DNA from: Burkholderiales bacterium
Lineage (GTDB): Bacteria > Pseudomonadota > Gammaproteobacteria > Burkholderiales > Casimicrobiaceae
DNA length: 64,000 nucleotides
NCBI GenBank assembly: GCA_025927765.1
Contig: JAICKU010000001.1
Span: 62,001 to 126,000 of the forward strand
Reading direction: 5' to 3'
This document shows, piece after piece, positions 2,053 to 60,270 of this stretch (positions within the stretch are counted from its first letter, which is position 1; each line of letters opens with the position of its first letter). The position numbers were made by a program, and so were the translations under genes. The notes beneath the pieces are model-generated. The model ran no database searches. It was not told where the DNA came from and worked only from the letters and a program-made list of their open reading frames with translations.

Positions 2053-3141
2053 ATGTCCACCGAGTGCGGGCGCCCCGGTTCCACCCAAGACGCGATTCCC
2101 TTGTCACGACGACTTCTATCGCGGTTGATCGTCGCGTTTGGCACGTGCGGCGTGGCGGTGGGGCTCGTGCTGCTCCCGGGTGTGTCCGCCGCGCAGTTGC
2201 TGCTCGCCGTGAGCGACGGCGCGGACGTGTACGGCGAGGTCGCGAACGAGATCGCGCGCCGCGTGCGCATCGGCGATTCGCAGCTGCAGATCGACGTCGC
2301 CGGCGCACAGGCAGCGGCCACGATGGACGCCGAGCGGCTTCGCCGCTACCGGCTCGTGATCACCATCGGTGCCGCGGCGGCGCGCGCGCTCGCGCTGCCG
2401 GCGGCGACGCCACGCAGACGCCCGCCGACGCTGGCGCTGCTGATTCCGCGCAATCGCATCGACGAATTCGTGCCGCATGCAGCGGGGGAACGCGATGGAA
2501 CCTTCTCCGCCATCTTCATCGAGCAGCCGCTCGCGCGACAGCTCGACCTCGTCGCGCTCGCGTTGCCTGCCAGAACCCGCGTGGGCGTTCTGCTCGGGCC
2601 GGCGTCGGCCGCCTCGGTGCCGGAGCTCGACGAGGTCGCGCGCGCGCTTCAACTCGACGTACGCATTGCCGAAGCGAGGGATGCCACGGCCGTCTACCCG
2701 GCGTTGCAGCGGGTGCTGCTCGAAAGCGACGTGTTGCTCGCACTGCCGGACAACTTGGCGGTCAATGCGGCGACGATTCGCAGCGTGCTCGTCGCCAGTC
2801 ATCGTGCGCAGGTGCCGGTGATCGGCTTTTCGCAGGCGCTCGTCGATGCCGGCGCGCTGCTCGCCGTCTACTCGACGCCGCAGCAGTACGCGCGGCAGGC
2901 CGCGGAGATCGCGCTGCGCGTACTCCGCGCCGAAGGCGCCGTCCTGCCGCGGCCGCAATATCCGCGCTACTTCACCGTCGGCGTGAACTTCCTCGCGGCG
3001 CACGTGATCGGGCTCGCCGTCGACGACGAATCCACGCTCGCCGCCCAACTCGCCGCACGCGCGCGAGAGCGCGAGAAGGAGCGTGATCGCGAGGCATCGC
3101 GAACGGCGGCGAAGCATGCAGACGGCTCGGGTTCGCCGTGA
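2053..3141 (+). CDS. Periplasmic binding protein (ABC_sub_bind-like), partner of the downstream kinase
   Basis: About 362 residues, matching the ABC_sub_bind (PF04392) type of solute-binding protein. A signal peptide (about residues 18-48, ending VSAAQ) is preceded by 16 extra residues, so a TTG at 2101 may be the real start; neither start has a clear ribosome site. Two lobes are visible: an N-terminal one (LLLAVSDGADVYGEVANEI) and a later one with VPVIGFSQALVDAGALLAVY, which is typical of this family. The charged C-terminus (REREKERDREAS) is unusual. No ABC permease or ATPase follows. Instead the next gene, overlapping by four bases, is a sensor kinase. I infer that it loads a ligand signal onto the kinase or was recruited as a periplasmic co-sensor. 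Confidence 0.75.
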   Translation: MSTECGRPGSTQDAIPLSRRLLSRLIVAFGTCGVAVGLVLLPGVSAAQLLLAVSDGADVYGEVANEIARRVRIGDSQLQIDVAGAQAAATMDAERLRRYRLVITIGAAAARALALPAATPRRRPPTLALLIPRNRIDEFVPHAAGERDGTFSAIFIEQPLARQLDLVALALPARTRVGVLLGPASAASVPELDEVARALQLDVRIAEARDATAVYPALQRVLLESDVLLALPDNLAVNAATIRSVLVASHRAQVPVIGFSQALVDAGALLAVYSTPQQYARQAAEIALRVLRAEGAVLPRPQYPRYFTVGVNFLAAHVIGLAVDDESTLAAQLAARAREREKERDREASRTAAKHADGSGSP

Positions 3142-5033
3142 AGCACTGGGGCATCCGCGCCCGCGTGCTCGTCCTGGCACTCGCCCCGGGTGCGCTGATC
3201 CTGTTCACGCTGCTGATCTACTTCACGTACGTGCGCATCGCGGAAGTGGACGCGGCGCTCGCACGGCAGGGCGTGTCGATCGCGCGCCCGCTCGCGTCGG
3301 CCACCGAGTTCGCGCTGTTCGCCGGCGACCGCGCAACCCTGCAACGACTCGCCGACAGCGCGGCGCGCGAGGCCAACGTCGCGACCATCCACATCCGCGA
3401 TGCGGCCGGCCGCGAAGTCGCGCGGAGCAGGGGCGAGCAGGCGACGCGCGATTCGACGCCGCTCGTCGAATTCACGCATCCCGTGGTCGAGACCCAGCTC
3501 GCCGGCGACATCCCGGAGCGACTGCACGTGCCCGATGCCAGCCCGATCGGCGAAATCGTCGTCAGCATGTCGCGGCATGCCGCCGAAGCGCAGCAGCGGC
3601 GGTTGCTCGCGATCGGGCTCGTGCTCGGGTTCACTTGCATGATCGGTGCGGTATTGCTCGCGATGGTGATCGGCAACGGCGTCGTGCGACCGATCAGGGG
3701 GCTCGCGCGGGCGATGCGCGAGGTGGGCGCGGGTCGCCGCGTCGCACCGCTCGACGTGTCGGGAGGGGGCGAGTTGCGCGAGCTCTCCGCGGGATTCAAC
3801 GACATGGTGGCGCGTCTGCAGGCGGGGACCGACGAGTTGCAGGCGCGCATCGCCATCGCGACGCGCGAGGTCAGTGCGCAACGTGACGCCGCGCAGGCGG
3901 CAACCGACGCGAAATCACGCTTCATCGCTGCCGCCAGTCACGATCTGCGGCAGCCGTTGCACGCGATCGGCATGTTCACGGCGGCGCTCGAGCGGCGCAC
4001 TGCGGATGCGCGCGTACGCGACGTCGTAGGCGAGCTCGCGCAGGCGGTGGCCGTGATGGACCGGCTGTTCGACGCGCTGCTCGACGTGTCGAAGCTCGAC
4101 GCGGCCGCGCAGGAGGTCGCGCCGAAGCACGTGCGCGTCGCTGATCTTTTCGCCCAGCTCGAATCCGAGCATCTCGAGGCCGCAGCGCACAAGGACATTT
4201 CGCTGCGATTCCGCCCGACGTCGCTCGTCGTCGTGACCGACGAGCTGCTGCTGCACCGGCTGCTCGGCAACCTCGTCGCGAACGCGATCCGCTATACGAA
4301 CGAGGGCAGCGTCCTCGTCGCTGCACGGCGCCGCGGCGATGCCGTGCGCATCGAGGTGCGCGACAGCGGCATCGGCATTTCGCCCGAGCATCAGGAGGCG
4401 ATCTTCGACGAGTTCTACCAGGTCGCCAACCCGGCGCGCGATCGCCGGCTCGGCCTCGGGCTCGGCCTTGCGATCGTTGCGCGCATCGCCCGGCTGCTTC
4501 GCACCGAAGTCCGTGTACGCTCTGCACCCGGCCGGGGCTCGACGTTCTTCCTGCAACAACCGCTTGCGCCGGAGGGGGATGTGGCGCCGATGGCGCAGCG
4601 GTCGCGTGCGACGGTGTCCGAGGACGGCGAGGCCGCCTTGTCCGTGCTGATCGTCGACGACGATCCGATTGCGTTGTCCGGGAGCCGCGTTTTGCTGGAA
4701 GAACTGGGATGCAGCGTGACCACGGCCACCGACGCGGCGAGCGCGCAATCGGCGATCGAGCGCCTCGGCAGCGCGCCGGTGCTCGTGCTGTGCGACCTCT
4801 GGCTTTCCGACGATCGCAGCGGCATGGGCGTGCTGCAGCGCCTGCGCCGCCTCGCCCGCGCGCCGGTGTACGGTGTGCTCGTCTCGGGCGATACGCGGCC
4901 CGAAACGATCCAGCTCGCGCGCGATGCGGGCTTCGCGTTGCTGCACAAGCCGGTTTCGCCGGCGCGCATGCGTGCGATCGTGATGCAGTTCGCAGCGCGC
5001 GGCCGCGCGCTTGCCATCGAGCCGGCGCCATGA
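3138..5033 (+). CDS. Hybrid sensor histidine kinase with C-terminal receiver
   Basis: A 631-residue inner-membrane kinase from a GTG that overlaps the binding-protein stop (GTGA). Order: TM1 (about 10-31), periplasmic sensor region (about 32-153), TM2 (about 155-178), HAMP (to about 230), HisKA with phospho-acceptor His268 in ASHDLRQPLHA, HATPase with N-box NLVANAIRYTNEG, G1 DSGIGIS and G2 GLGLGLAIV, then a receiver starting SVLIVDDDP with likely Asp553 in LCDLWLSDD. The ASHDLRQPL H-box is typical of hybrid kinases paired with NarL/FixJ regulators, and one overlaps its stop. The ligand is unknown; the upstream binding protein is the natural candidate sensor partner. Confidence 0.93.
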   Translation: MKHWGIRARVLVLALAPGALILFTLLIYFTYVRIAEVDAALARQGVSIARPLASATEFALFAGDRATLQRLADSAAREANVATIHIRDAAGREVARSRGEQATRDSTPLVEFTHPVVETQLAGDIPERLHVPDASPIGEIVVSMSRHAAEAQQRRLLAIGLVLGFTCMIGAVLLAMVIGNGVVRPIRGLARAMREVGAGRRVAPLDVSGGGELRELSAGFNDMVARLQAGTDELQARIAIATREVSAQRDAAQAATDAKSRFIAAASHDLRQPLHAIGMFTAALERRTADARVRDVVGELAQAVAVMDRLFDALLDVSKLDAAAQEVAPKHVRVADLFAQLESEHLEAAAHKDISLRFRPTSLVVVTDELLLHRLLGNLVANAIRYTNEGSVLVAARRRGDAVRIEVRDSGIGISPEHQEAIFDEFYQVANPARDRRLGLGLGLAIVARIARLLRTEVRVRSAPGRGSTFFLQQPLAPEGDVAPMAQRSRATVSEDGEAALSVLIVDDDPIALSGSRVLLEELGCSVTTATDAASAQSAIERLGSAPVLVLCDLWLSDDRSGMGVLQRLRRLARAPVYGVLVSGDTRPETIQLARDAGFALLHKPVSPARMRAIVMQFAARGRALAIEPAP

Positions 5034-36035: not shown

Positions 36036-36932
36036 ATGTCGTCCACGAGTGCCGCCCGGCTGCTGCTGCTCGCCGCGATCTGGGGCGGGTCGTTCCTGTT
36101 CATGCGCATCGCCGCGCCGGTGCTCGGCCCGGTGCGCCTCATCGCGTGGCGCGTCGCGCTCGCGGCGATGTTTCTCGTCGTCATCGCCCGGCTGCGCCGG
36201 CGCGACATCGCCGCACGGACCCATTGGCGCCACTACCTGATCCTCGGCACCTCCAACTCCGCGGTGCCGTTCCTGCTGTTCGCGTTCGCCGCGCAGGCGC
36301 TGTCGGCCTCGCTGCTGTCGATCCTGAATGCGACCGCGCCGATCTTCGCCGCAGCGATTTCCGCGCTCGTCGCGCGCAGGCCTCCCGCGCCACGCGTGAT
36401 CGTCGGACTCGTGCTCGGCGTCGTCGGCGTCACGGTGCTCGCGAGCTTCGACGCGATGATGGTCGCCCCCGGTGCGCTGCTCGCGTTGTTCGCCGGCCTC
36501 GCCGCATCGCTGTCCTACGGCATCGCGTCGATCTACGCGAAGTCGGCGCCGGGTCCCGATCCGTTCGCGAATGCGCTCGGCAGCATGTTGGCCGCCACGT
36601 TGCTGCTCGCGCCCGCGACGCCGTTCTTTCCGGCACACGCGCCGTCCGGAGCGATCGTCGTGCTGTCGGTGCTGGGGCTCGGCGTGCTGTGCAGCGGCGT
36701 CGCGTACCTGCTGTACTTCCGTCTCATTGCCGATCTCGGCCCGGCGTCCGCGCTCACCGTCACGTTCCTGATCCCGGTGTTCGGCGTGCTGTGGGGAGCG
36801 CTGTTCCTGCACGAGCCGATCGGCGTGCACACGATCGCGGGATCGCTGATCGTCGTCGTCGGCACCGCGCTCGTGACCGGCTTCAACCTGCGACTGCTGT
36901 TGCCGGGCGTGCGAAGTCAGAACTTGCCGTAG
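36036..36932 (+). CDS. EamA/DMT-family transporter
   Basis: 298 residues with ten hydrophobic helices arranged as two EamA repeats (about 5-135 and 150-288). AAIWGGSFLFMRIAAP in the first repeat and LIPVFGVLWGALFLHEPIG in the second are typical. Exports metabolites or amino acids by analogy; the substrate is unknown. Its last 16 bases overlap the end of the convergent RraA-like gene. Confidence 0.9.
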   Translation: MSSTSAARLLLLAAIWGGSFLFMRIAAPVLGPVRLIAWRVALAAMFLVVIARLRRRDIAARTHWRHYLILGTSNSAVPFLLFAFAAQALSASLLSILNATAPIFAAAISALVARRPPAPRVIVGLVLGVVGVTVLASFDAMMVAPGALLALFAGLAASLSYGIASIYAKSAPGPDPFANALGSMLAATLLLAPATPFFPAHAPSGAIVVLSVLGLGVLCSGVAYLLYFRLIADLGPASALTVTFLIPVFGVLWGALFLHEPIGVHTIAGSLIVVVGTALVTGFNLRLLLPGVRSQNLP

Positions 36933-53953: not shown

Positions 53954-56104
53954 ATGCATCGGCTTCGTCTTCTTCGCCGTCGCGCGCTCGCGTTCGTCGC
54001 GTGCATCCTCGCGGTGGGCCTCGCCCACGCGGCGCCGGTGCGCACCGATCACGTCAACGCCGAGCTCGTCGCCGACCGCGCGGCGCTCGTCCCCGGCACG
54101 ACGACGACGCTCGCGCTCCGGCTCGACATCGATCGCGGCTGGCACACGTACTGGCGCAATCCCGGCGAATCGGGGCTGCCGACGACGCTCGCGTGGAAGC
54201 TGCCCGCAGGGTATCAGGCGGGCGACATCGAGTGGCCGGCGCCGAAGGCGCTGCCGGCGGGGCCGCTCGTCAACTACGGCTACGAGGGCGTGGTGCTGCA
54301 TCTCGTGCCACTGCGTGTCCCGGCCGACGCCGCCGTCGGGCAGAACGTCACGCTCGCGGCACGCGCCGATTGGCTCGTGTGCAGGGAAACGTGCGTGCCC
54401 GAGGGCGCCGACCTCACGCTCGTGCTGCCCGTCGCAGGCGACGCCGTCCCGTCGAAATGGCACGACGCGATCGCGGCGACGCAGGCCGCGTTGCCGAAGC
54501 CGTTGCCCGGCTCATGGAAGACGAGCGCGGTGGCGAAGGGTTCGCGCATCGCATTGACGCTGACGCCGCCGGCGAATGCCGCGGACCCGGGCAGGTTGCA
54601 GTTCTTCGCGGACGACGAGCGGCGCATCGAGGCGTCGGCGCCGCAGACGCGCGAAGCGGCGAACGGCCAGTATGTGCTCGACCTGCCGGTGTCGCACGAG
54701 CTCAAGGGCGGATTCGCGTCGCTGCGCGGCGTGCTGCGCGGCGCAACCGGCTTCGCGACGGACAACGGCGTTGTCGCGGCCGCGGCGATCGACGTGCCGA
54801 TCGCCGGAACGCCGATCGCCGGTCCGAAGCCGGTGATCGACGCGTCGGCCGTCACCGCCTCGGCGGCGTCACTGCCAACCGGCGCGGCGAACATCGCGGC
54901 GTGGCCCGTCGCGGTCGCGCTCGCCTTCGCGCTGGTGGGCGGCGTGCTGCTGAACCTGATGCCCTGCGTGTTCCCGATCCTGTCGTTGAAGGCGCTCGGG
55001 CTCGCGTCGTCCGACGGCGATCGCGGCGCGTTGCGACAGGAGGGCGTAGCGTTCGCCGCCGGTGTCGTCGTCGCGTTCGCCGCGCTCGGCCTCGTGCTCC
55101 TCGCGCTGCGTGCCGGCGGCGCCGAGCTCGGCTGGGGCTTCCAGTTGCAGTCGCCGGCGGTGGTCACCGCGCTCGCGATCCTGTTCTTCGTGATCGCGCA
55201 GAACCTGTCGGGCGTGTTCGAGTTCGGCGCGTTCGTGCCGTCGGGCGTCGCGAGCTTCGCCCACGCGAATCGTCACGTGAACGCGTTCGCGTCGGGGCTC
55301 CTCGCCGTGGCCGTCGCGTCGCCGTGCACGGCTCCGTTCATGGGCGCGGCGCTCGGTTACGCGCTGACGGCTCCGGTCGTTGTTACGCTCGGCGTGTTCC
55401 TTGCGCTCGGCGTGGGCATGGCGCTGCCGTATGGCCTGCTCGCGTGGTTCCCGCAGTGGCGTCGCATGCTGCCGCGCCCCGGTCCCTGGCTCGTGCGCCT
55501 GAAGCAGGTGCTCGCCTTTCCGCTGTATGCGACGGTGGCGTGGCTCGCGTGGGTGCTCGCCGCACAGGTGGGCATCGACGCCGTCCTGCGGCTCGGGCTC
55601 GTGCTGGTGCTGGTCGCGCTGGCGCTCTTCGCGTGGCGCGCATGGCGGTCGGCGGGCAGCGCCGCATGGACGGGCGCCGTGGCCGCCGCCGTCGTCGGCG
55701 CCGCCATTGTCGTGTGGCCGCTTTTCGTCGGCGGCGGGACCCAGGAGGTGCCGCGCACGGCGAGCGGCGACGGCTGGCAAACGTTTTCGCCGGCGGGCGT
55801 GGCGCAATTGACGGCGGAAGGCCGGCCCGTGTTCGTCGATTTCACCGCGGCGTGGTGCATCACCTGCCAGGTCAACGAGCGCTTCGTGCTGAACGACGCG
55901 CGCGTGCGCGACGCGTTCGCGCAGAACGGCGTCGCGCTCGTCCGTGCCGACTGGACGCGCCGCGATCCCGCCATCACGCAGGCACTCGCCGAACTCGGTC
56001 GCAGCGGCGTCCCGGTGTACGTGCTCTATCGCCCGGGACGCGCGCCGCTCGTGCTGCCCGAGGTGCTCGAGCGGCGCGTCGTGATCGACGCGTTGGCGTC
56101 GTAG
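53954..56104 (+). CDS. ScsB/DsbD-type thiol:disulfide reductase
   Basis: 716 residues. Signal peptide (about 1-26), an N-terminal periplasmic domain with a redox pair in [12 protein letters not shown], a central membrane domain of about eight helices with cysteines in [13 protein letters not shown] and [10 protein letters not shown], and a C-terminal thioredoxin domain with WCITC. This is the three-domain electron conduit that moves reducing power from cytoplasmic thioredoxin to periplasmic proteins. The N-terminal domain is of the ScsB type, larger than in classical DsbD, so copper-stress or alternative periplasmic clients are possible. Confidence 0.92.
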
Positions 56105-56119
56105 TCTGCGACCCTTGGG

Positions 56120-56437
56120 CTACGGCTTCTTCGCATGCACGACGCCGGTCATGAACGGGTGCACCGTGCATAAGTACGCGTAGTCGCCTTCCTTGTCGAA
56201 CGCGCGCTCGAACGTATCGCCGGTATCGAGCCCCTTCGACGCGAAGCTCTTGTCGCCGGCCGCGATCGTGTGCGGCGTCTCGTCGTGATTGGTCCACACG
56301 ATCGTCGTGCCCGGCGCGACGGCGATCTCCTTCGGCGTGAATGCGAACTTCGCAATGTCGATCTGAACCGTTCCCGCGTGTGCCGCGGTCACGATCGTGA
56401 ACGCGAGCGCGGCCGACAAGGCGCGTGACGTCTTCAT
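56120..56437 (-). CDS. Cupredoxin-domain protein
   Basis: 105 residues with a signal peptide (about 1-21). Type 1 copper ligands are visible: His56 in NHDETPHT, Cys90, His93 and Met96 in YLCTVHPFM. A small periplasmic blue-copper electron carrier or copper binder. It follows the Tat-type phosphoesterase gene by 12 bases on the same strand, and both face the divergent ECF sigma gene. Confidence 0.93.
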   Translation of the reverse strand: MKTSRALSAALAFTIVTAAHAGTVQIDIAKFAFTPKEIAVAPGTTIVWTNHDETPHTIAAGDKSFASKGLDTGDTFERAFDKEGDYAYLCTVHPFMTGVVHAKKP

Positions 56438-56449
56438 CGGTCGTCTCCT

Positions 56450-57412
56450 TCAGCTCGCGAGTGGCGTATCGATCAACGCGAGCTCGTGACGTCCGCGAAC
56501 GACGCTGACGCGCCGCGTGCCGAGCAGCTTGCCGAGCTCGCTTCGGGGAACGGTCACCGGACCCGGCTCGCCGATGCCGGCCTGTCCGGGAGTGGGCAGC
56601 GGATACGCGAGCGACATCGCCGTGTGCAGCGCGACGTTGCCCTCGACCTTCTGCAGGACCTGGTGGATATGGCCGTTCAGCACCGTGACGGAGCCGAACG
56701 GGCGCAACAGCGACATCGCCTGCGCGGAATCGGCCGTGCCCCAGCCCCACGGTGCCCAGATCGTCCACATCGGAATGTGCGCGAGCACGACGATCGGGGT
56801 CGAATGCGACCGGCCGGCGAGGTCGTTCTTCATCCAGGCGAGCTGCTCGTCGCCGAGCGATGCGAGCGTGCCCGGCTTGAAGTTCTCGACGTTGTTGAGC
56901 GCCACGAAATGCACGCCGGCATGGTCGAAGCTGTACCACGCCTTGCCGTTGCCGTCGTGATCGAAGAACTTGAGGTAACCGGACGTGCCGTCGTCGATCG
57001 TGTCGTGCTCGCCGGGCACCGTGTGCACGCGGTCGACGCGCAACGCCTGCAGCAGTTCCTTCGCGCGGCCGAATTCCTCGGGCTTCGACAGATGGCTGAC
57101 GTCGCCGGTATGCACTACGAACGCCGGCGCGGGCGCGAGCGCGTTGATCTCGTCCGTCGCACGGCGGAGGCTGCCGACCACGTCGGGATTCGCATCCTTC
57201 CTGAAGCCGATGTGCGTGTCGCTGATCTGCACGAACGTCAGCGCGTTGCCCGGGGCGGGCTTCATCGCGTCGCCTCGCGTCGCACCGAGCGCGTGCGGCA
57301 CGCCGCCGGTGACGGTCCAGACAAGGGCGGTGCCGCTCCAGGCCGTGAGGCACGAGAGCGCCTTGCGACGGCTGGCGAAGCGGGGTGAGCGGTTGGGATC
57401 CTGCGTGTTCAT
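56450..57412 (-). CDS. Exported metallophosphoesterase (calcineurin-like), Tat-type signal
   Basis: 320 residues from the ATG at 57412 (GGAGGTATCGCG upstream). The N-terminus ASRRKALSCLTAW is Tat-like. Dimetal motifs: QISDTHIG, HTGDVSH, a modified GNHD block reading PGEHD, LAHIPMW, and NGHIHQ. Acts on a phosphate mono- or diester in the periplasm; substrate unknown. Cotranscribed with the cupredoxin gene and divergent from an ECF sigma factor whose control region it shares. Confidence 0.9.
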   Translation of the reverse strand: MNTQDPNRSPRFASRRKALSCLTAWSGTALVWTVTGGVPHALGATRGDAMKPAPGNALTFVQISDTHIGFRKDANPDVVGSLRRATDEINALAPAPAFVVHTGDVSHLSKPEEFGRAKELLQALRVDRVHTVPGEHDTIDDGTSGYLKFFDHDGNGKAWYSFDHAGVHFVALNNVENFKPGTLASLGDEQLAWMKNDLAGRSHSTPIVVLAHIPMWTIWAPWGWGTADSAQAMSLLRPFGSVTVLNGHIHQVLQKVEGNVALHTAMSLAYPLPTPGQAGIGEPGPVTVPRSELGKLLGTRRVSVVRGRHELALIDTPLAS

Positions 57413-57502
57413 CGCGATACCTCCGGGGTCGGTGATCGGGGTCCTTCCGTCACGCCTTACTCCCGGCACGCGACCGATATTCCGCTTCGCACTGCACGGC
57501 TG

Positions 57503-57531
57503 CCGCGGGAATAAAGTGACTGCTCCCGCGG
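57503..57531. promoter_or_regulatory. Inverted repeat between phosphoesterase and ECF sigma genes
   Basis: CCGCGGGA and TCCCGCGG pair across 13 bases. Inside lie GGGAATAAA (57507-57515) and GTGAC-N2-CTCCCGCG (57516-57530). The second motif recurs at 58944-58958 ahead of the small exported gene, so these are candidate ECF-sigma promoter elements; which strand is read is unclear. Confidence 0.5.
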
Positions 57532-57585
57532 TACACGAGTCGACGCGGCCCGACACGACGTGCAACGGGCGCGGAGGAGCAGCGC

Positions 57586-58125
57586 TTGTCGGACCACGCT
57601 CGTTTCGAGAAGCTCGTGATGCCGCATCTGGGGGCCGCCTACAACCTGGCGCGCTGGCTTGCGCGCGACGGGCACGACGCCGAGGACATCGTGCAGGACG
57701 CGTGCATTCGCGCGCTGAAGTACGTCGATTCGCTCAACCGAAGCGAGGCGAGGGCATGGTTCCTGACGATCGTGCGGCACGCGTTCTACGACTGGTGCGA
57801 GCGCAACCGCCCGGCGGACATCGCGCACGACGACGGCAGCGCGCTCGAAGCGGCAGTCGATCACAACGCGATCGACCCCGAGCAGGCGGTGCTGCGCCGC
57901 GCTGAATCGAAGGCGATCGCCGACGCCGTCGCCGAACTGCCGCTCGCGTTTCGCGAGGTGCTGATCCTGCGGGAGATGGAAGACCTGTCGTACAAGGAGA
58001 TCGCGCGCATCGCCGACATTCCCATCGGCACCGTGATGTCGCGGCTCGCACGCGCGAGGGCGTTGCTGCAGGGCTCGCCGCGCCTTCGCGCCATCGGAGA
58101 ACGAACGTCGGGAGGCGAGCGGTGA
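57586..58125 (+). CDS. ECF-type RNA polymerase sigma factor
   Basis: 179 residues from a TTG, with a strong GGAGGAG site. Region 2 (about 8-75) contains YNLARWLARDGHDAEDIVQD and region 4 (about 110-165) contains ELPLAFREVLILREME and IPIGTVMSRLARAR. Regions 1 and 3 are missing, as in extracytoplasmic function sigma factors. The stop overlaps the anti-sigma start. Likely autoregulated through the inverted-repeat region upstream. Confidence 0.94.
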   Translation: MSDHARFEKLVMPHLGAAYNLARWLARDGHDAEDIVQDACIRALKYVDSLNRSEARAWFLTIVRHAFYDWCERNRPADIAHDDGSALEAAVDHNAIDPEQAVLRRAESKAIADAVAELPLAFREVLILREMEDLSYKEIARIADIPIGTVMSRLARARALLQGSPRLRAIGERTSGGER

Positions 58126-58925
58126 AGTGCGACCAGACGCAACCGTTGATTGCGCCGTACGTCGACGGCGAACTCGACACGCTGCGGCGACGCTTCGTCG
58201 AGAAACATCTGAAGAACTGCGCGCCGTGTGCCGAGCAGCATGCGGACCTCGTTGCACTGCGCCAACGCATTCGCACCGAAGTGCCGTACTTCGCTGCGGC
58301 GCCGGCGCTCGCCGAGCGTGTGCGCGCGATCGTGGCGGCGACGCCGCCCGCCGGTTCTTCGGGCCGGCCGCACAAGCGCGAACGCTGGCCACGGCTTTCG
58401 GTCGGCGTTTCGCGGCACTGGCAATGGCTCGCCAGTGGCGCAGTCGGTGGCTGCGCCGCCACGGTGCTCGCGTTCGTGGCAGGCACCGCCGTCCTCGATT
58501 GGCAGGCGAGCCAGAACGTGGTCGCGCAGGCGGTGACGAGGCACGTGCAGGCGACGCTCGGCCATCGCCTGGTCGACGTCGCGTCTTCCGATCAGCACAC
58601 CGTGAAGCCGTGGCTGTCGGCACGCCTCGATTATTCGCCGCCGGTGCACGACCTCGCTGCGGAAGGCTTTCCGCTCCTCGGCGGCCGCCTCGACACGCTC
58701 GGTGGCCGCAAGGTCGCCACGCTCGTCTACGGCTATCGCAAGCACACGATCGACGTGTTCGTGCAGCCGGACTCGTTCGACATGCCGTCGTCGCACGAGC
58801 TTCGCGGCTTCAACGTCGCGCATCGGCGTGCGGCAGGGTGGGACTGGCTCGCGGTGTCCGATGCAAGCCCGGACGTTCTGAACGGATTCGTTTCGCAGCT
58901 CGTCAGCGCGGCGACCGCGAAGTAG
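58122..58925 (+). CDS. Zinc-finger anti-sigma factor, membrane-bound
   Basis: 267 residues. The N-terminal cytoplasmic zinc finger has His34-x3-Cys-x2-Cys in KHLKNCAPCAEQ; a single membrane helix lies at about 105-122 (GAVGGCAATVLAFVAGTAV); the C-terminal periplasmic domain (about 125-267) would be the sensor. It should hold the sigma factor inactive until an envelope signal. Overlaps the sigma gene by four bases. Confidence 0.92.
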   Translation: MKCDQTQPLIAPYVDGELDTLRRRFVEKHLKNCAPCAEQHADLVALRQRIRTEVPYFAAAPALAERVRAIVAATPPAGSSGRPHKRERWPRLSVGVSRHWQWLASGAVGGCAATVLAFVAGTAVLDWQASQNVVAQAVTRHVQATLGHRLVDVASSDQHTVKPWLSARLDYSPPVHDLAAEGFPLLGGRLDTLGGRKVATLVYGYRKHTIDVFVQPDSFDMPSSHELRGFNVAHRRAAGWDWLAVSDASPDVLNGFVSQLVSAATAK

Positions 58926-58943
58926 TGGCGCGCGGCCGCGACC

Positions 58944-58967
58944 GTGACAACTCCCGCGTTATTCCCG
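58944..58967 (+). promoter_or_regulatory. Second copy of the GTGAC-N2-CTCCCGCG box before a small exported protein
   Basis: GTGACAACTCCCGCG at 58944-58958 matches 13 of 15 bases of the box at 57516-57530, and is followed by TTATTCCCG, the reverse complement of the GGGAATAA also found there. It lies about 100 bases before the start codon at 59046. Confidence 0.5.
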
Positions 58968-59045
58968 TTCGCATAAACGCTTCTTTGCGCCGGTCTGCCA
59001 ATCGAGCGCCCTGAAACGCTCGTTCATTTCCGAAAAGGAGAAGCC

Positions 59046-59378
59046 ATGAATCGCAAGTTCACGAACAGCCACCTGATCGCCGCCGTTGCATCGACGCTCT
59101 GCGCATCGGCCGCGCTGGCTGACGACAACAGCATGAGCGTGCTGACCGGCGAGTCGTACGCGTATTTCAACCATCTGGATTACAGCGCGGGCAGGTTCAA
59201 CGTCGCGCACGCACCGGAGCGTGGCGATGCCGCGGTGCAGGCGCGGCAGGCCGTGGAGCACGACACGGCGATGAAGATGCCGCAGGCGCCTCGCGATGCG
59301 GCGGACACGCCGATCCTGCTCGCCGAGCGGCCGCGCATCGCATTCCGCAGCCCGTTCCGCGACGACACCGGCGCGTGA
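59046..59378 (+). CDS. Small exported protein, candidate member of the ECF regulon
   Basis: 110 residues, start preceded by AAAGGAGAAGCC. Signal peptide (about 1-25, ending ALADDN). The mature part has SYAYFNHLDYSAGRFNVAHAP and a Pro/Arg-rich tail, with no recognisable domain. Because its upstream region shares a box with the sigma-factor control region, it may be a target of that sigma factor. It ends one base before the convergent AEC transporter gene. Confidence 0.7.
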   Translation: MNRKFTNSHLIAAVASTLCASAALADDNSMSVLTGESYAYFNHLDYSAGRFNVAHAPERGDAAVQARQAVEHDTAMKMPQAPRDAADTPILLAERPRIAFRSPFRDDTGA

Positions 59379-59379
59379 T

Positions 59380-60270
59380 CTATAAACCCGGCGGAACCGG
59401 GAGCGCGATCGCGAGGCCGAGCGGTACGAACGCGATCGCCATCAGGTTGCCGATCAGCACGATCGAGGCGACCTTGCCCGGTTCCTGCCGGAATTGCTCG
59501 GCCACCATGAAGTTCAGCACCGCCGGCGGCAGGCTGCCGAACAGGATCAGCAGGCCGCGTTGCGTAGCGTCGAGATCGAGCACGAACGTGAGCAGCCACG
59601 CGCTCGCGATGCCCGTCAGCGGGCACACGATGCCGCCGACCGCGCCGATGCGCCAGTCGGCGAAGCTCGACTCGAAGAGGCGCACGCCGAGCGACAGCAG
59701 CATCATCGGAATCAGCGCGTCGCCCACCATCCTGATCGCGACCGACGACCATTCCGGCATGGGCGGATGCGAAAGCGCGAATGCGAAGCCGGCGACGGTC
59801 GCGATCACCATCGGGTTTCGCAGCAGGTTCCCGAAGCGCGCGCGGTGGTCGATCATCCACGTGCCGAGCGTGAACTGCAACAGGTTCGAGATCGTGAACA
59901 GCGCGACCATCGGCGAGAAGCCGGCGGTGCCATACGCGAGTGCGGCGAGCGGCAGGCCCATGTTGCCGCAGTTGTTGAACATCATCGGCGGCACGAACGT
60001 GCGCACCTCGGCGTGCATCGCGCGCGCCACGGGCCACGCGAGCAACCCCGAGCCCAGCACGACGCCCACGCTGCCGAGCAGCAACCCGCTGTTGGCGCCG
60101 ACGTCGAACGACTTGCTCGCGAGTGCCGAGAACACGAGCGCCGGCGCCAGCACGTTCATGCTGATGCGGTTCACCGACGCCATGTCGGGCTTCACGCGCC
60201 ACGCGTAGAGCCAGCCGAGCGCGATCACGGAGAACACCGGCAGGATGATGCCGGCGATGCGCGCGAGCAT
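59380..60270 (-). CDS. AEC-family permease
   Basis: 296 residues, about ten helices in two halves. VNRISMNVLAPALVFSALAS and MMFNNCGNMGLPLAALAYG are the conserved regions of auxin-efflux-carrier-type transporters, which in bacteria move dicarboxylates or malonate. Six bases beyond the hslU stop on the same strand, so cotranscribed, an unusual neighbour for hslU. Confidence 0.92.
   Translation of the reverse strand: MLARIAGIILPVFSVIALGWLYAWRVKPDMASVNRISMNVLAPALVFSALASKSFDVGANSGLLLGSVGVVLGSGLLAWPVARAMHAEVRTFVPPMMFNNCGNMGLPLAALAYGTAGFSPMVALFTISNLLQFTLGTWMIDHRARFGNLLRNPMVIATVAGFAFALSHPPMPEWSSVAIRMVGDALIPMMLLSLGVRLFESSFADWRIGAVGGIVCPLTGIASAWLLTFVLDLDATQRGLLILFGSLPPAVLNFMVAEQFRQEPGKVASIVLIGNLMAIAFVPLGLAIALPVPPGL

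Follow-up and report, generated by a model that had tools for sequence, protein, structure and literature searches.

The stretch of DNA analyzed here, called the window throughout, comprises 64 kb (contig JAICKU010000001.1, positions 62,001 to 126,000) of the 4.01 Mb genome, present in 148 contigs, of a bacterium assigned to the Burkholderiales (GCA_025927765.1). Our analysis concerns a compact locus in this window that is built around the genes for an extracytoplasmic function (ECF) sigma factor and its putative anti-sigma factor. A preliminary description had placed a cupredoxin, a phosphoesterase, an ECF sigma factor, a zf-HC2 anti-sigma factor and a small exported-looking open reading frame (ORF) between positions 56120 and 59378, with the sigma gene divergent from the genes for the phosphoesterase and the blue-copper protein. 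We can confirm all of these gene positions, as well as the divergent arrangement:

56120-56437, minus strand: amicyanin/plastocyanin-like cupredoxin of the type 1 copper kind, exported; its gene is the second in the phosphoesterase operon (Pfam Copper-bind, 1.9e-11)
56450-57412, minus strand: calcineurin-like phosphoesterase (Pfam Metallophos, 3.2e-14)
57586-58125, plus strand: ECF sigma factor with a TTG start (Pfam Sigma70_r2 and r4_2)
58122-58925, plus strand: membrane-anchored zf-HC2 anti-sigma factor (Pfam zf-HC2, 3.4e-11)
59046-59378, plus strand: small exported protein of 110 amino acids with a signal-peptide-like start and a DDNSMSVLTGESYAYF stretch

The TTG start of the sigma gene aligns with a TTG in several relatives. 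Upstream of the sigma gene, all 17 loci that we fetched from the family share, with small variations, the sequence GGGAATAA-N14-CGGTA, and from these 17 upstream regions, with the window excluded, we built a promoter matrix. The site with its 14-base spacer is present in 17/17 family sigma upstreams, which are the training set of the matrix. When both strands of the window were scanned, four of the five best matches fell into the locus under study:

57507-57535, plus strand: predicted sigma promoter, GGGAATAA-N14-CGGTACA, score 21.6, rank 1
58938-58966, minus strand: predicted backward (antisense) promoter into the anti-sigma gene, GGGAATAA-N14-CGGTCGC, score 18.2, rank 2
36703-36731: site within an ORF outside the locus, score 12.65, rank 3
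57456-57484, minus strand: predicted promoter of the phosphoesterase operon, CGGAATAT-N14-GAGTAAG, score 12.6, rank 4
58969-58997, plus strand: predicted weak promoter of the small gene, TCGCATAA-N14-CGGTCTG, score 11.2, rank 5

GGGAATAA occurs twice in the window, compared with 0.27 expected occurrences, and two of the three places in the entire genome that deviate by at most one mismatch from GGGAATAA-N14-CGGTA belong to this locus. A sigma-70 promoter scan of positions 56000-59700 returned no matches. The closest relative (locus L129, with a sigma factor that is 93% identical) possesses the same four sites, with scores of 21.6 for the sigma gene, 21.0 for the backward promoter, 20.3 for the phosphoesterase operon (GGGAATAT-N14-CGGTAAG) and 11.5 for the small gene; the orthologues of the small-gene site in L130 and L131 score 12.5 and 12.3, respectively. 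These assignments change how the region must be read. The preliminary description had recognized a GGGAATAA/TTATTCCC motif in the control regions of both the sigma gene and the small gene. Two copies of GGGAATAA are indeed present; they are located on opposite strands, however, and therefore do not represent one element facing the same way. TTATTCCC is the -35 element of the backward promoter, and its assignment as promoter element of the small gene, whose own predicted site is found at 58969-58997, is for this reason not supported.

A second element that the preliminary description had placed in both control regions, the 15-base box GTGAC-N2-CTCCCGCG, fared differently. The genome-wide search that it had proposed as a check detected the box sequence GTGACNNCTCCCGCG without mismatch at just two places of the 4.01 Mb genome, both at this locus, and with one mismatch at 12 more:

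57516-57530, plus strand: box copy 1, consisting of 13 spacer bases of the sigma promoter and the first two bases of its -10 element
58944-58958, plus strand: box copy 2, covering spacer bases of the backward promoter as well as one end of its -10 element

Such a distribution, with the same orientation toward both genes, would befit the operator of a separate regulator common to the sigma and small-gene control regions. Yet the two intergenic stretches (173 and 120 bases) have a best common 15-mer that agrees at 13/15 positions, and this agreement was equalled or bettered in 69/1000 dinucleotide shuffles. Nor is the box kept by relatives: at the aligned place in the sigma promoter spacer, L129 retains 8/11 of the specified bases and the other 16 relatives 1-7/11, and the best match on either strand upstream of the small gene is 7-9/13 in L129, L130 and L132. 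The best match in the sigma upstream of L129 (10/13) lies at an unrelated position. Since, in addition, the two copies overlap the spacers of promoters that face opposite ways, we deem a separate operator highly improbable. What remains of the earlier claim are the two exact copies; with shuffled sequences matching the box this often and relatives not keeping it, we set it aside as an unlikely control element that corresponds to the spacer between promoter elements.

The module formed by phosphoesterase, cupredoxin, sigma factor and anti-sigma factor, together with its promoter, recurs in several phyla. For other taxa, we surveyed the first 31 of the 80 sigma relatives listed. Sigma upstream sites scoring at least 13 were present in 20 of these 31 loci, none of which had contributed to the matrix, compared with 15 of 620 random control windows. 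Fifteen of the 31 loci contain a phosphoesterase gene. The promoter of this gene, likewise outside the training set, scores at least 13 in 10/11 family loci and in 11/15 loci of other taxa. Module and promoter are found in records labelled as beta- and alphaproteobacteria, Gemmatimonadaceae and Acidobacteria, and also on plasmid-type replicons of Caballeronia sp. M1242 and Cupriavidus campinensis, where phosphoesterase and sigma genes are divergent and have one site each. In six loci in which the phosphoesterase gene lies upstream of the sigma gene on the same strand (L057, L060, L065, L068, L076 and L077), a site precedes the phosphoesterase gene and none precedes the sigma gene; in L056, which has the same layout, sites of 12.2 and 13.7 precede the phosphoesterase and the sigma gene, respectively.

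By its promoter, the sigma factor is placed near group ECF26. The protein consists of regions 2 and 4 only and scores 209 bits against NCBIfam PRK12533, under the cut-off of 248. With an ECF sigma factor encoded on pSymA of Sinorhizobium meliloti it shares 38% identity over 128 residues (73.6 bits), and with a slightly truncated E. coli RpoE 30% over 162 residues (60.5 bits). For ECF26 promoters, the consensus is given as -35 GGAATA / -10 GT (PMC6180224) and as -35 GGAAT / -10 CGTC (PMC6527743), and the sites at the locus and in its relatives agree with it. The sorT promoter is printed with 16 bases between GGGAAT and CGTC, which is also the spacing at the locus studied here (PMC6180224). As in ECF26 systems, the sigma gene is followed by that of an anti-sigma factor with an N-terminal anti-sigma domain, one transmembrane segment and a periplasmic domain, a layout of the COG5662 type.

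The best described systems of this kind are those of S. meliloti, in which RpoE1, RpoE3, RpoE4 and RpoE6, with their EcfR anti-sigma factors, share the GGAATA/GT promoter and the succession of a sigma factor and an anti-sigma factor with one transmembrane and one periplasmic domain; RpoE6 has a divergent target, RpoE1 and RpoE6 are autoregulated, and RpoE4 controls a blue-copper protein (PMC6180224; PMC3511301). In an unannotated record of pSymA, our matrix detects a divergent site (13.1) ahead of the one ECF sigma gene matched there, presumably rpoE6, and a second site (11.8) within it, which agrees with the sites reported for rpoE6 (PMC6180224). This check is only suggestive because the 35 kb stretch examined holds 10 sites scoring at least 11, one of them stronger (15.2). 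The locus in the window differs from the S. meliloti systems in two ways. Where these control a sulfite oxidase or a serine protease, its targets are a phosphoesterase-cupredoxin pair and a small exported protein of no known class; and it has a second divergent promoter pair, one arm of which is antisense to the anti-sigma gene. It may be that the original classification names phosphoesterases among the neighbours of ECF26 already.

One idea, modelled on RpoE1 and RpoE4 of S. meliloti, is that the circuit answers sulfite, with the cupredoxin serving as electron acceptor. The promoter type is the same, and RpoE4 controls sorT-sorU-azu2, the genes for a sulfite oxidase, a cytochrome c-like protein and a pseudoazurin (PMC6180224). 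However, the partner enzyme in the window is a phosphoesterase, a scan of seven neighbouring proteins, to which the search was confined, revealed no sulfite oxidase, and not every ECF26 factor responds to sulfite (PMC3511301). We therefore regard a sulfite response as quite unlikely.

We consider it quite probable that the locus constitutes a small circuit of the ECF26 type in which sigma and anti-sigma factor are autoregulated and the promoters form two divergent pairs. Its genes, its promoter sites, the conservation of these sites and the recurrence of the module are observed. In the circuit that we propose, the zf-HC2 domain of the membrane-bound anti-sigma factor would hold the sigma factor until an envelope signal acting on the periplasmic domain presumably frees it. 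The released sigma factor would then read GGGAATAA-N14-CGGTA promoters in the two pairs. From the first pair, the sigma and anti-sigma genes would be transcribed in one direction and the operon for the exported phosphoesterase and cupredoxin in the other; from the second, located downstream of the anti-sigma gene, the small exported protein would be weakly expressed in one direction, and an antisense transcript, from an arm that is stronger as judged by its sequence, would run into the anti-sigma gene in the other. The preliminary description had proposed that the sigma/anti-sigma unit controls the phosphoesterase-cupredoxin pair and the small exported protein. With the comparative promoter evidence, control of its own gene and of the phosphoesterase-cupredoxin operon is plausible, as is a weaker control of the small gene; it was the element mediating this control that had been misread.

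Several observations weigh against this circuit or limit its reach. Among 3400 shuffled 250-base upstreams, in which single bases and not dinucleotides were shuffled, 5% have a best site above 9.2, and 1% have one above 13.0. The phosphoesterase and small-gene sites of the window are degenerate, and since shuffled upstreams attain similar scores, these two weak sites need comparative support. For the small gene, the orthologous site in L132 reaches only 7.0, and the third-ranking match in the window lies inside an ORF. Scores below 13 were obtained for the sigma upstream in 11/31 loci of other taxa (L051, L057, L060, L061, L065, L068, L074, L076, L077, L078 and L079) and for the phosphoesterase upstream in 4/15 loci of other taxa and 1/11 of the family (L138, L053, L056, L063 and L075). 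Furthermore, 18 of 340 family control windows, which can overlap true sites, also score at least 13, and the 13 places in the genome with up to two mismatches to GGGAATAA-N14-CGGTA hardly surpass the 11 of a reversed control pattern. The ECF26 label itself is founded on promoter and similarity and not on an ECF26 profile or tree. Release of the sigma factor, transcription from the predicted promoters and an effect, if any, of the antisense arm are inferred.

With such numbers, a wider regulon in this genome is not convincing. Of the 11 places with up to two mismatches that are found elsewhere in the genome, 10 fall within long ORFs (picked according to their length and codon-position GC). The remaining one, an intergenic near-match (L156, G000:C82:5180-5206, score 15.2), is situated ahead of a gene for a 457-amino-acid protein with PKD, fn3 and F5-F8 domains, which is a possible extra target of the sigma factor.

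The second promoter pair (58938-58997) has a peculiar geometry: its two predicted promoters face apart, and 2 bp separate their -35 elements. This 2-bp back-to-back arrangement is found in L129, L130, L131 (twice), L137 and L140, and a 1-bp version in L133. L131 has such a pair between the small gene and the sigma gene, which are divergent; the strong arm (21.3) points toward the sigma gene and the weak arm (12.3) toward the small gene. The order differs in the window and in L129: here the small gene follows the anti-sigma gene, and the strong arm points back into the latter in antisense orientation.

Two views of this strong arm have to be weighed. An antisense RNA from a strong promoter just past the anti-sigma stop codon could lower the amount of the inhibitor and thereby sharpen the switch, while the same bidirectional element would weakly drive an exported effector. 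Alternatively, a bidirectional cassette that once stood between the small gene and the sigma gene, as it does in L131 with the strong arm facing the sigma gene, may have moved downstream of the anti-sigma gene, so that the strong arm would now fire into this gene without function. For a working device speaks that the arm retains both of its elements at exact spacing in the window and in L129 (18.2 and 21.0) although only 5/14 spacer bases agree. Against it stands the decay of the arm in L130 (10.4, with a 13-base spacer) and L132 (at most 4.2), which have the gene order of the window; consequently, only one of the three relatives with this order has kept it. We find it rather probable that the backward promoter is a passive relic, a view that is compatible with the circuit proposed above, and such a relic of rearrangement is more likely than a working antisense device. 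An antisense RNA that sharpens the switch appears unlikely to us.

The idea of antisense RNAs under the control of alternative sigma factors has precedents. In Bacillus subtilis, sigma-D reportedly provides antisense transcription to gdpP. In Corynebacterium glutamicum, SigH drives the antisense RNA arnA, and an extra SigH promoter at rshA transcribes rshA itself (PMC3489674). As described, neither case involves an antisense RNA to the sigma factor's own anti-sigma gene. In the literature that we covered, which included few subscription journals and accessible portions of texts, no sigma-driven antisense RNA to the cognate anti-sigma gene was found. The new point at the locus is a predicted sigma-type promoter that is antisense to its own anti-sigma gene, and the antisense arm would be new if it works.

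The anti-sigma factor carries its zf-HC2 motif at C3, H29, C33 and C36 and has one hydrophobic stretch, read from the sequence at about residues 103-127. Three histidines of the periplasmic domain (H141, H159 and H208) are invariant in an alignment of 15 proteins. The structural model (mean pLDDT 83.0, pTM 0.56) contains a long helix (residues 103-147) and a folded C-terminal domain. Its N-terminus resembles ChrR, RslA and RsiW (Z 7.3-8.0), and the C-terminal domain comes closest to the C-terminal domain of RseB/MucB (Z 8.8, rmsd 2.9, 94 aligned residues). A Foldseek search with the model returned nothing at E <=0.001 (best E 2.7e-3), and the periplasmic domain alone matched no Pfam family above cut-off and no PDB sequence at E up to 1. 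As Foldseek by itself gave no hit at this threshold, and as the Z score is close to that of unrelated models, we treat the predicted RseB/MucB-like periplasmic fold as a lead. The RseA/RseB (MucA/MucB) proteins of RpoE/AlgU would, on the basis of this model, provide a parallel in combining a membrane-bound anti-sigma factor with such a fold. They differ in promoter and sigma group, and in the window a single protein would unite the anti-sigma domain with the RseB-like part.

The invariant histidines, the cupredoxin in the operon and the neighbouring DsbD/ScsB-type gene (53954-56104, plus strand, left neighbour of the cupredoxin gene) could be taken to mean that the circuit answers copper or oxidative stress via the cupredoxin and the ScsB-type reductase. 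A DsbD-like gene adjoins the module in the window and also in L130 and L132. These are, however, just 2 of the 17 family loci fetched, although several of the 17 are cut by contig ends, and none of the 30 best promoter matches in the window lies within 1 kb of the DsbD-type start at 53954. A copper or oxidative signal thus strikes us as doubtful. The literature, within the scope given above, contained no link between an ECF factor, a phosphoesterase and a cupredoxin; we found only a looser connection to copper (PMC12153292).

The cupredoxin has the C-x2-H-x2-M motif, as do 17/17 of its relatives. It matches amicyanin in the PDB at 2e-10 and shares with amicyanin and plastocyanin the type 1 copper ligands and the family, and it differs from the amicyanin equivalog by scoring below the curated cut-off of NCBIfam TIGR02657 (45.4 versus 110.2 bits). 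The nearest solved relatives of the phosphoesterase are GpdQ from Enterobacter aerogenes and Rv0805, with which it has in common the metal-site motifs DxH, GDxx, GxHD and GHxH and, as far as the model tells, probably the fold. It departs from both in two respects. First, it is probably exported: its N-terminus reads SRRKAL, a twin-arginine-like motif that we take to be of the twin-arginine translocation (Tat) type, and its presence suggests export via Tat. Second, GEHD replaces GNHD, with Glu135 aligning with the Asn of the GpdQ motif and all other ligand motifs in place. GEHD is found, by pattern, in 23 of 26 module phosphoesterases; L062, L056 and L135 contain neither GEHD nor GNHD, and L062 shows GEND in the alignment. 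Because of this frequent replacement, a changed metal preference is possible. The model of the phosphoesterase is of low confidence (mean pLDDT 65.8).

Scans against Pfam and NCBIfam with E up to 0.001 assigned the small exported protein to no family. Orthologues of its gene lie beside the sigma gene in L129, L130, L131 and L132. Away from the sigma locus, its N-terminal motif has weak and partial matches in three family genomes (G027, G043 and G063; L165-L170); the proteins concerned are small, look exported and contain a stretch resembling DDSSMNPFTGESYAYF, and the one scanned, that of L168, lacks a Pfam match. Weak candidate sites with a 13-base spacer on the right strand precede the genes of L167 (13.7, without the GT in the -10 element) and L168 (9.2), and no upstream sites of at least 9 were present in L165, L166, L169 and L170. 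A search for the small gene across the order Burkholderiales, which was shallow as it scored at most 11 candidates per genome, matched two of 399 genomes, namely the one studied here and one with internal stops. A candidate stem-loop where the small-gene mRNA is predicted to begin (59003-59022, plus strand) emerged from a terminator scan that gave two matches versus 2.1 in shuffles, and we make no claim for it. It folds better than shuffled sequences in the window (z -2.2) and in L132 (z -4.4), but not in L129, L130 or L131.

To the right of the small gene, a membrane transport protein gene follows on the minus strand, and beyond it lies a minus-strand gene that we take to be HslU-like. Where the window has this transporter gene directly after the small gene, L129 has a gene for a DcaP-type outer-membrane porin (positions 2762-4099; Pfam DcaP, 5.5e-31). 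In family genome G027, the sigma/anti-sigma pair is present in two copies (L131 and L139), and each anti-sigma match is split into two reading frames. Mesorhizobium ciceri (L173) carries a sigma/anti-sigma pair followed by two DUF680 genes with an ECF26-type site (21.1) ahead of the first, and these genes are a possible further small-protein target.

Collectively, the circuit is a recurrent one and of a known kind, with a phosphoesterase-cupredoxin pair as its target. A conserved ECF26-type promoter takes the place of a box that is likely due to chance, and a small and precise set of target genes is thereby predicted. At the same time, the locus lends itself to a clean test of whether antisense RNA to the gene of its inhibitor is produced by an ECF sigma factor. 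Should such an RNA lower the inhibitor, the bacterium would possess an ECF circuit with a built-in double positive feedback.

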